Shown in pieces: positions 34,880 to 58,000 of a stretch of 64,000 bases of DNA. Location of the stretch: assembly GCF_018323885.1 (NCBI RefSeq), contig NZ_AP024585.1, forward strand, positions 2,604,001 to 2,668,000, read 5' to 3'. The DNA comes from Citrobacter amalonaticus (lineage in GTDB: Bacteria > Pseudomonadota > Gammaproteobacteria > Enterobacterales > Enterobacteriaceae). The notes under the pieces are model-generated. The model searched no databases. It was not told the origin of the DNA and was given only the letters and a program-made list of their open reading frames with translations. The translations under genes were made by a program, and so were the position numbers. The number at the start of each line of letters is the position of its first letter. Position 1 is the first letter of the stretch.

Positions 34880-35410
34880 ATGTTGCGATATTTGAACCAG
34901 TGCTCACGGGGTCGGGGCGCGTGGTTATTGATGGCTTTTACTGCCTTAGCGCTTGAACTGGTCGCGCTGTGGTTTCAGCACGTTATGCTGCTTAAGCCGT
35001 GCGTACTGTGCATCTACGAACGCTGTGCGCTGTTTGGCGTCATGGGGGCCGGTCTGGTTGGGGCTATTGCGCCTAAAACACCGTTGCGCTATGTGGCGTT
35101 GATTATCTGGATCTACAGTGCCTGGCGTGGGGTTCAACTGACATGGGAACATACCATGATCCAGTTACACCCTTCCCCGTTCATGACCTGTGATTTCATG
35201 GCTCGCTTCCCTGCCTGGTTGCCACTGGACAAATGGTTACCACAGGTGTTTGTCGCCTCTGGTGATTGCGCCGAGCGTCAGTGGGAATTTTTATCTCTGG
35301 AAATGCCGCAATGGCTATTAGGCATTTTCGTTGCCTATCTGGTCGTCGCGGTTCTGGTGCTGATTGCTCAGCCGCTTAAACCGAAAAGACGCGATCTGTT
35401 CGGTCGTTAA
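34880..35410 (+). CDS. dsbB: disulfide bond formation protein DsbB
   Basis: A 176-residue inner-membrane protein with four helices. It reoxidises periplasmic DsbA and passes electrons to quinone. The two redox pairs are Cys41-Cys44 ([10 protein letters not shown]) and Cys104-Cys130 (MTCDF, SGDCAER), at the same numbers as in E. coli. The start MLRYLNQCS at 34880 is set by homology; the ribosome site is GCAGGGAAA. The gene is followed by an unusual duplicated terminator with a 141-bp insert (35417-35604). Confidence 0.96.
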
Positions 35411-35416
35411 TCTCAG

Positions 35417-35604
35417 ACGCTCCCAGCCGGGAGCGTGAGAGTGATGACAAACATCATCCCGATACCGGACAAGCAAAGATCACCTCATTAAAAACCCGGA
35501 AAATTAATTCATTGATTTTCGGCTGATAACCACAAAGAAGGAAAAACCACGTTTTTTCCTTCTTTGTCAGCAGTCTGACGCTCCCAACCGGGAGCGTTTT
35601 TTTT
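35417..35604 (+). repeat. 141-bp element, copy 1, flanked by duplicated terminator hairpins
   Basis: After dsbB there is hairpin ACGCTCCC-AGCC-GGGAGCGT (35417-35436), a 141-bp core (35437-35577), then hairpin ACGCTCCC-AACC-GGGAGCGT (35578-35597) with eight T. The core recurs in reverse orientation at 56064-56204 with 14 differences by eye (about 90% identity), where it sits between two copies of a different hairpin. The core begins GAGAGTGAT, contains CCGATACCGGACAAGC, and ends with its own 15-bp stem (ACAAAGAAGGAAAAA, 35532-35546, with 35553-35567). In both copies the orientation relative to the upstream gene is the same. It encodes no protein. I know no named family with these features. Confidence 0.85.
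35578..35604 (+). terminator. functional dsbB terminator (distal hairpin copy)
   Basis: Stem ACGCTCCC / GGGAGCGT with loop AACC and a run of eight T (35597-35604). The proximal copy at 35417-35436 has the same stem but no T-run, so transcripts should end here. Confidence 0.9.
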
Positions 35605-35633
35605 GCCGTTAGCCTGAAATCAGACCAGGCGGT

Positions 35634-36095
35634 TTAGTCCGCCCATGACGGTTTGTTGAGAATATGGTCCTGCCAGTCATGGACTTCTGACTCTCTTACC
35701 GCAATGTGACGCACCGAAATTCGCTCGCCGTGCATTGCCGCTTTCGACCCCGTCAGCAGCGGGTGCCATTCAGGCAGTCCTTTCCCTTCCGCCAGCAGAC
35801 GATAGGCGCAGGTCATCGGCAACCATTCAAAGGTGGGCAGGTTATCACGCGTTAGCTTGATACAGTCAGGCTCGTACTCGAACCGACGTTCGTAATTGCG
35901 ACACTGGCAGGTTTTGATGTTGAGCTGGCGGCAGGCGACGTTGGTGAAATAAATCTCGTCGGTATCCTCGTCCATCAGCTTATGCAGGCAGCACTGACCG
36001 CAGCCATCACATAACGACTCCCATTCGGCATCGGTCATTTCATCCAGGGTTTTACGTTGCCAGAAAGGTAAATCGCTCATCAGGGTATCCGCCAT
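35634..36095 (-). CDS. ycgN: UPF0260 cysteine-cluster protein YcgN
   Basis: A 153-residue protein of the CxxCxxCC family (PF03692). The cluster [11 protein letters not shown] is near residues 35-45, and further Cys follow in [18 protein letters not shown]. The family probably binds iron-sulfur or zinc, but no function is established. The start [12 protein letters not shown] at 36095 gives the E. coli length; the open frame to 36173 overlaps the end of ycgM. It follows ycgM by 77 bp in the same direction, so the two may be co-transcribed. Confidence 0.93.
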
Positions 36096-56036: not shown

Positions 56037-56063
56037 AAAAAAAACGCCGGATTCACCCGGCGT
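56037..56063 (-). terminator. hairpin plus U8: fadD terminator and rnd leader
   Basis: On the minus strand ACGCCGGGTGAATCCGGCGT is followed by eight T and then the rnd start 25 bp on. It would end fadD transcripts. In E. coli a hairpin with eight U in this place is reported to be needed for rnd translation. It is one of two copies flanking the 141-bp element. Confidence 0.8.
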
Positions 56064-56224
56064 CAGATTGCTGACAAAGAAGAAAAAAGCGTGGTTTTTC
56101 CTTCTTTGTGGTTATCAGCCGAAAATCAATAAATTGATTTTCCTGGTTTTTAATAAGGTGATCTCGGCTTGTCCGGTATCGGCATAAGGTTTGCGATCAC
56201 TCTCACGCCGGATTCACCCGGCGT
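56044..56224 (-). repeat. 141-bp element, copy 2, flanked by duplicated terminator hairpins
   Basis: Reading leftward from the fadD stop: hairpin ACGCCGGGTGAATCCGGCGT (56205-56224) without a T-run, a 141-bp core (56064-56204), then the same hairpin (56044-56063) with eight T. The core is about 90% identical to that at 35437-35577 and is exactly as long. It keeps the same orientation relative to the upstream gene and the terminal ACAAAGAAGGAAAAA stem. Outside the core the two loci share no sequence beyond the ACGC...GCGT form of the hairpins. Confidence 0.85.
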
Positions 56225-56243
56225 TTGACGTGTTGCTTAACGC

Positions 56244-57929
56244 TCAGCCCTTATTGTCCACTTTGGCACGGGCTTCGTCACGCAATTCTCGACGTAAAAT
56301 TTTGCCGACGTTTGATTTCGGCAGTTCATCGCGGAATTCAACCAGTTTCGGGACTTTATAGCCCGTGAGCTGACGGCGGCAGAAAGTGACCAGCGCCTCT
56401 TCGGTGAGTGAAGCCTCTTTTTTCACCACAAAAATCTTCACCGCTTCGCCGCTGCTGCCGGACGGAACACCGACGGCAGCCACTTCCAGCACGCCCGGAT
56501 GCTGCATCACCACATCTTCGATCTCGTTCGGATAAACGTTAAATCCGGAGACCAGAATCATATCTTTCTTACGATCGACAATGCGCAGGAAGCCTTCATC
56601 GTCCATGACTGCGATATCACCGGTGTGTAGCCAGCCGTCTTTGATGATTTCATCGGTCGCATCAGGACGCTGCCAGTAGCCCAGCATCACCTGCGGCCCT
56701 TTCACGCACAGTTCACCCGGCTGATCCGGCGACACTTCGTTGTCGTCATCGTCCACCAGTTTGGCTTCGGTCGATGGCACTGGCAGGCCGATGCTGCCGC
56801 TGTGATAATCAATATCGTGCGGGTTAACGCTGACCAGCGGCGCGCATTCGGTCAGGCCATACCCTTCAAGCAGATACTGTCCTGTCAGTTTTACCCAGCG
56901 TTCTGCCACCGCCTGTTGCACTGGCATGCCGCCGCCCGCAGAAAGATGCAACGAAGAGAAATCCAGTTGCTGGAACTCTTTATTGTTCAGCAAGGCGTTA
57001 AACAAAGTGTTCACGCCGGTCATCGCGGTAAACGGATACTTCGCCAGCTCTTTAACCAGCCCCGGAATGTCGCGCGGGTTGGTGATCAGCAGGTTCTGCC
57101 CTCCCAGCTCGATAAACAGCAGGCAGTTCATGGTCAGGGCAAAAATGTGGTACAGCGGCAACGCGGTCACCACCAGTTCTTTACCCGGATGCAAAAGCGG
57201 TCCGTAAGTGGCTTTCACCTGCTCCAGGTTAGCCAGCATATTGCGATGCGTCAGCATCGCCCCTTTCGCCACTCCGGTCGTTCCGCCGGTGTACTGTAAA
57301 AACGCCAGGTCCTCAGAAACCACTTCCGGTTTAACATACTGCATACGGTACCCGGCGTGCAGCGCACTGCGAAAAGAGATCGCATCCGGCAGATGATATT
57401 TCGGCACCAGTCGTTTGATGTACTTCACTACGAAGTTCACCAGCGTGCCTTTAGCCGTGGAAAGCTGGTCGCCCATACGGGTCAGAATGACGTGCTTAAC
57501 GCTGGTTTTATCAACCACTTTTTCCAGGGTATGGGCGAAGTTGGAGACAATCACAATCGCCGCCGCGCCGCTGTCGTTTAACTGATGCTCCAGTTCACGC
57601 GGGGTATAAAGCGGGTTGACGTTCACCACAATCATCCCGGCACGCAAAATGCCAAACAGCGCCACCGGATATTGCAGCAGGTTTGGCATCATCAGCGCGA
57701 CGCGGTCGCCCTTTTTCAGCCCCAGCCCCTGTTGCAGGTAAGCTGAGAAGGCGCGGCTACGCTCCTCCAGCTTGCGGAAGGTCATTACCTCCCCCATGTT
57801 CATAAACGCGGGCTGATCGGCATAACGCGCGACAGCATGTTCAAACAGTTCCACCAGGGATTGATAACGGTCAGGATTGATCTCCGCAGGCACATCTGCG
57901 GGGTAACGGTTTAACCAAACCTTCTTCAC
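56244..57929 (-). CDS. fadD: long-chain fatty acid-CoA ligase FadD
   Basis: A 561-residue AMP-forming acyl-CoA synthetase at the inner face of the membrane. It activates imported fatty acids for beta-oxidation. The ATP motif [13 protein letters not shown] lies near residue 213 and the second (YGLTECAP) near residue 360; the FACS signature NGWLHTGDI is seen here as [20 protein letters not shown]. The GTG at 57929 is taken as start: GAGGTGA lies just before it and the length equals E. coli, which uses TTG. The frame is open to 57995. A FadR operator lies upstream. Confidence 0.95.
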
Positions 57930-58000
57930 TGCATCACCTCTAAAATGAGTGTTCGTCGTCATCTCAACCCCAGATAATAAACAAGTCGTTAACATAATAT

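Follow-up and report, generated by a model that had tools for sequence, protein, structure and literature searches.

The terminators downstream of dsbB and fadD raise the question of how one and the same short sequence came to lie, in two places, between two copies of a hairpin that differs from one place to the other. Within the window (the whole stretch of Citrobacter amalonaticus DNA analyzed here, 64,000 nucleotides in length), a 141-bp core occurs at 35437-35577 on the plus strand and, reversed, at 56064-56204 on the minus strand. Direct comparison of both coordinates gave the same length and 14 differing positions, just as a reading of this DNA from its letters alone (the sequence-only reading) had reported. 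In the explanation that we favor, and that we consider very probably correct, this non-coding element is a MITE that depends for its movement on a hairpin-targeting transposase of an IS1182 subclade, supplied in trans, and the terminator hairpin is duplicated on insertion.

Insertions into the dsbB and fadD terminators

The features of the two sites are as follows.

34880..35410, plus strand: dsbB, the gene with the entered terminator (PF02600 / NF002485; start codon assumed, the listed ORF running from 34775)
35417..35436, plus strand: proximal dsbB terminator hairpin, without T-run (from the window sequence and the empty orthologous sites)
35436..35578, plus strand: mini-element (MITE), 143 bp, TGAG to TCTGA; the earlier core is 35437-35577
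35436..35451, plus strand: terminal inverted repeat, B end, TGAGAGTGATGACAAA
35499..35520, plus strand: helix 1, an AT-rich internal hairpin, almost invariant
35532..35567, plus strand: helix 2, a subterminal hairpin extending into the A-end repeat
35563..35578, minus strand: terminal inverted repeat, A end, TCAGACTGCTGACAAA, the same sequence as in IS1182-clade and YPAL ends
35578..35597, plus strand: distal dsbB terminator hairpin; the T-run after it extends to 35604
56044..56063, minus strand: distal fadD terminator hairpin, with a T-run at 56037-56043 on the minus strand
56063..56205, minus strand: second copy of the mini-element, 143 bp, with its core at 56064-56204
56199..56285, minus strand: sroD small RNA with the entered terminator (Rfam RF00370, 69 bits)
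56205..56224, minus strand: proximal fadD terminator hairpin, without T-run, within the sroD match
56244..57995, minus strand: fadD, longest ORF (NF006523; the FadD model match begins at residue 24)

At dsbB, the hairpin ACGCTCCC..CC..GGGAGCGT stands at 35417-35436 and again at 35578-35597, with one loop base unlike, and at fadD the hairpin ACGCCGGATTCACCCGGCGT stands at 56044-56063 and 56205-56224. Seen from the upstream gene, a T-run follows only the distal hairpin at both sites, which bears out at dsbB and fadD the earlier description of a core between duplicated local hairpins of which the distal one alone keeps its T-run. Copies at other sites reveal imperfect terminal inverted repeats and a length of 143 bp (TGAG...TCTGA), from which it follows that the outer T and A of the window copies are common to the feet of the hairpins. 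The dsbB target duplication is 18-20 bp long, the outer A/T being assignable either to the element or to the hairpin. Searched against Rfam at gathering thresholds, the window yielded sroD and one tRNA only, and no family for the mini-element.

At dsbB, all seven other genomes of the genus carry one hairpin with its T-run and no insert. At fadD, three of the seven are filled and four are empty, with one hairpin. Since the empty orthologous sites have a single hairpin and T-run, the second hairpin is a target-site duplication, and the element entered a pre-existing terminator, doubling it. The comparison with strains lacking the insert, which the sequence-only reading had proposed for both loci, thus turned up empty sites and not an ancestry in which every genome is filled. 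Among the eight genomes compared, the dsbB insertion is confined to the genome of the window and the fadD insertion is common to four; the latter appears to be the older of the two. One could argue instead that the element brings its own hairpins, or that the flanks arose by later slippage or convergence around an RNA module, given that both flanks fold and would share one transcript. However, the dsbB and fadD hairpins equal the single hairpin of the respective empty orthologous site, and we regard this explanation as extremely unlikely.

Target stems of many different sequences have been used, and the target form ACGC...GCGT suggested earlier is abandoned on this ground. In another genome (G009), the 3' region of fadD (L165) contains a stretch that resembles, by eye, the AT-rich hairpin of the element; this fadD terminator may have been entered independently.

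Copies across genomes and their flanking repeats

The C. amalonaticus genome holds 10 copies of the mini-element (7 further rows of the search were the palindrome matching itself and stand outside this count), with duplicated hairpins at 8 of them and none at L005 and L010. A core match at E 0.001 or better was obtained in 10 of 59 genomes (58 relatives plus the genome of the window). These 10 genomes provided a first set of 60 distinct sites, with 69 non-redundant copies among them; matches shorter than 50 bases (hence L062 and L063) were left out, as were repeat hits on one stretch. Measured against a control of 3540 mismatched-flank pairs, the flank duplication lay above the control 99th percentile at 47 of the 60 sites and above the control maximum at 45. 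The 13 sites that did not exceed the 99th percentile comprise seven partial matches (L010, L032, L034, L035, L060, L077, and L081) and six complete or nearly complete copies (L005, L043, L052, L064, L069, and L087).

When named genomes were scanned for the pattern, 44 loci turned up in Citrobacter, Cedecea, Serratia, Buttiauxella, Entomohabitans, Enterobacter, and others. The second set drawn from it left out four of the 44 loci (Entomohabitans, genome G009) and four of 41 hits without full flanks, and just 1 of its 37 matches is complete under the completeness rule used. Here, flank duplication exceeded the set's own 99th percentile at 26 of the 37 sites and fell short of it at 11; the control maximum of 24.0 exceeds most of the true scores, which is caused by orthologous pairs such as L233 and L242, which look like one orthologous site. 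The two sets are not wholly independent because Citrobacter occurs in both. Together with the empty sites, the excess over control in the first set upholds the earlier proposal of a small non-coding mobile element that enters terminators and duplicates their stem-loop. Copies without hairpin duplication, which had been named as evidence that would speak against this proposal, do exist, but they form a minority in both sets (13 of 60 and 11 of 37 sites).

A search of 20,395 E. coli records at E 1e-5 did not find the core. The pattern scan also located the enterobacterial element on a contig titled Chryseobacterium (L252), probably from a contaminated, mixed, or mislabelled isolate.

A filter for hairpins on both sides was passed by 49 copies, orthologous copies included; L005, L010, and L059 have unlike left and right hairpins. 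In 12 of the 49, the TCTGA side alone has the T-run, and in 19 the TGAG side alone; 8 have one on each side, and 10 have none. The sequence-only reading had remarked that the core keeps one orientation relative to the upstream gene; this is true of both window copies and fails for the others (12 versus 19 of 49). A fixed orientation relative to transcription is therefore unsupported, and the concordance of the two window copies is a coincidence.

These orientations also bear on the suggestion that the element is of a retro type, copying itself via RNA into terminators, with the stem-loop duplicated by target-primed synthesis. Group IIC mobile introns prefer terminators, and the targets of the mini-element are terminators, too. 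Nevertheless, the element enters terminators in either orientation, which argues against such a route, as do the terminal inverted repeats, which are common to an IS with a DDE transposase; we have dropped the retro-type nature and consider it very unlikely.

IS1182-family elements with the same ends

The pattern TSAGACTGMTGACAAA is present in 12 of 295 genomes sampled from the order. One of the 12, a Vibrio-like genome with two large replicons and probably one of the Vibrionaceae, carries 19 intact copies of a 1595-bp IS with the end TCAGACTGCTGACAAA, whose transposase belongs to the IS1182 family (NF033551, E 8.5e-148; this model also gave a match at E 3.7e-154). All 19 copies, a count that leaves out the interrupted copy L134/L135, are flanked by exact direct repeats of 14-24 bp, every one of them a hairpin, and next to each of the 19 lies a flank rich in A or T (at least 5 of 8), as in terminators. 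The same flanks are seen at the interrupted copy. The length of the duplication tracks the hairpin, with no fixed stagger. Within each site the hairpins are identical, and between sites they differ except for a tandem pair, which again argues against hairpins brought along by the element itself. In this tandem arrangement (L104), two copies of the IS share one hairpin between them; the second IS seems to have entered the hairpin made by the first.

Hairpin direct repeats were likewise found at 13 of 18 IS1182 loci, which were chosen among the matches listed and judged without a mismatched control, a script taking the best-scoring pair of ends. The 13 loci come from Klebsiella (2), Providencia (2), Salinivibrio, Vibrio, Rhizobium (2), Acinetobacter, ISBspe1, Bacillus, Sutcliffiella, and Staphylococcus simulans; the plasmid relatives in Klebsiella and Providencia thus also lie between hairpin repeats. 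One Salmonella and one Providencia copy of the IS have no hairpin repeats and carry unlike hairpins on the left and right (L139 and L140), suggesting that they are recombined copies. ISEfa7 has a hairpin with a T-run after it on its right side only, and a Sinorhizobium member and ISCfr1, at about 30% identity, have neither these ends nor hairpin repeats. On the Salmonella plasmid CP053580.1 (L138), two transposase genes of this type of IS lie side by side.

A close transposase (E 1e-60) occurs in just 8 of 295 sampled family genomes, and several are broken. Ten places in these eight genomes were inspected by eye: equal hairpins are seen at three (L169, L170, and L175) and unequal ones at five (L171, L172, L173, L177, and L178), and two were not judged (L174 and L176). 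Equal hairpins are the rule in one fresh expansion and in most plasmid copies, not in the older or broken chromosomal ones. It is tempting to guess that recombination between copies made the hairpins unequal at the chromosomal places.

The A end of the MITE agrees at 17 of 17 bases with an end of L136, the IS on a Klebsiella plasmid, the best match inside the body of that IS being 10 of 17. The B end agrees with the other IS end at 15 of 18 bases as the family consensus and at 14 of 18 as the window copy; because ends crossed between MITE and IS still give 13 of 17 and 13 of 18, the B-end match is weak when taken alone. The MITE and the IS1182-clade elements have only their ends in common, about the terminal 17 bp. 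The mini-element thus resembles this IS1182 subclade (named relative ISBspe1) in its ends, in its hairpin or terminator target, and in the duplication of that hairpin, whereas the ISs code for a transposase and measure 1515-1609 bp in the copies with these ends, with no internal similarity noticed.

From the agreement in ends and target habit, we infer that the MITE is moved in trans by this subclade. The element is non-coding, and the partner in trans that the sequence-only reading expected would, we propose, be an IS1182-clade transposase. No transposase of this IS1182 clade was found in the genome of the window; a partner in that same genome is not strictly required, because partners lie on plasmids. 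The missing resident partner and the mere 17 or so terminal bp in common would also fit a MITE served by a different, unrelated transposase with the same ends by chance. This is quite unlikely, however, since autonomous IS1182 elements combine the same ends with the same unusual hairpin duplication and the distant IS1182 member ISCfr1 has neither.

The end motif is also found elsewhere. One small genome of another family (G192) has 49 hits and two more (G302 and G235) have fewer; all three are probably Pasteurellaceae. In several stretches (L092, L094, L095-L099, and L100), a hairpin borders the end motif and the interior differs, suggesting that further mini-elements or ISs carry this end.

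Known repeats, transcripts, and a proposed mechanism

The sequence-only reading knew of no described family with such behavior, but YPAL/RU-2 had been described. These palindromic sequences of Yersinia are about 168 bp long (sequence from PMC2759123, Table 1b) and, according to PMC2229807, make duplications of 3-26 bp at targets that span or adjoin dyad symmetry. YPAL/RU-2 is the closest known kind to the mini-element: the A ends agree at 16 of 16 bases and the B ends at 12 of 16, both are non-coding mini-elements, and both duplicate a dyad-symmetric target over a variable length. In contrast, the interior is unlike that of the 168-bp YPAL, the alignment score being equalled by 177 of 1000 and 602 of 1000 shuffles in the two orientations. 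The hosts differ as well, with Citrobacter, Cedecea, Serratia, Buttiauxella, Entomohabitans, and others on one side and Yersinia on the other; the comparison covers the 168-bp YPAL, not the 130-bp variant. YPAL-like matches occur in 14 of 295 family genomes (two candidates at most scored per genome), and their flank signal is weaker than that of the mini-element: repeats exceed the control 99th percentile at 8 of 23 such loci and the control maximum, which an orthologous pair inflates, at 2 of 23.

Two IS1182-family elements of Staphylococcus, IS1272 and TnSha1, target hairpins, several of which are terminators, with little preference for primary sequence (PMC4923244 and PMC5678879). For IS1272, the hairpin is reported to be replaced with no target duplication (PMC5678879), and PMC4923244 likewise describes hairpin targeting with blunt deletion; the legend to Fig. 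13 of PMC5678879 has hairpin duplication drawn as outcome 6b of the IS1272 model. The mini-element thus duplicates the target hairpin that stem-loop replacement of the IS1272 type deletes. ERIC (127 bp) is similar in being enterobacterial and intergenic and in forming transcribed hairpins, and is set apart by its termini, 5'-TA (PMC2229807, Table 1) versus TGAG/TCAG in the mini-element. Among the papers listed in searches of a part of the CC-licensed PubMed Central literature, which dealt with YPAL, IS1272, and MITEs, we found neither a published link between YPAL and IS1182 nor ISs with terminator duplication, and the assignment of an IS1182 partner to YPAL-type repeats seems to be new.

The region of the dsbB insert folds at -76.5 kcal/mol (z -7.9). 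In helix 2, six pairs are changed on both sides, in 13 such cells, a number that none of 500 shuffles reached and that compares with 2-4 cells in slid controls; because shuffles ignore relatedness and the alignment contains orthologous copies, this covariation is support rather than proof, and it can equally serve an RNA or a DNA hairpin. The strong fold and the paired changes would suit copies kept as useful 3' UTR modules for termination or mRNA stability, with selection explaining their placement at terminators. However, 19 near-identical IS copies are placed in the same way, which suggests that targeting alone is enough, and the covariation is explained equally well by a DNA hairpin needed in transposition, leaving such selection an unlikely explanation. 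YPAL itself reportedly overlaps terminators, and YPAL-bearing transcripts are said to be present at higher levels (work of De Gregorio from 2006).

Returning to the MITE moved by an IS1182-subclade transposase, we agree with the sequence-only reading that its insertion would give the transcript a structured 3' UTR. A promoter scan of 35350-35700 found none, and a terminator scan of the same interval scored the distal dsbB hairpin alone on that strand, so a longer 3' UTR is expected. The transcript would pass the proximal hairpin without T-run and then about 141 nt of structured RNA to reach the distal terminator. The sroD match ends in the proximal hairpin that lacks a T-run, and where the site is filled, as in four genomes of the genus, sroD would be expected to end about 160 nt further, at the distal hairpin.

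As for the insertion itself, the transposase would recognize a DNA stem-loop, mostly an intrinsic terminator, and each foot of the hairpin would be joined to one end of the element, after which repair would copy the whole hairpin to both sides. The cuts may fall at the 5' feet of a hairpin or cruciform that is extruded in double-stranded DNA or forms in a replication setting, and joining of the element ends to both 5' feet of such a stem-loop would be the simplest account of a duplication as long as the hairpin. More broadly, we lean toward the view that the IS1182 subclade, from Vibrio to Bacillus, reads DNA shape, that the fold of the target sets the length of the duplication, and that YPAL and the mini-element are its parasites.

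The YPAL-type repeats, which would add structured 3' UTRs to transcripts, thereby gain a probable autonomous partner with which their movement can be tested. Because the distal copy keeps the terminator and its T-run, the element could spread at little cost, and because each insertion creates a second target, tandem copies are explained. That 19 of 19 IS copies have duplications of hairpin length argues strongly, at the level of sequence, for a DDE transposase that chooses its targets by their structure; the outcome for the hairpin is opposite to the deletion reported for IS1272. If true, the reading of DNA shape would place the YPAL type among the elements driven by IS1182.
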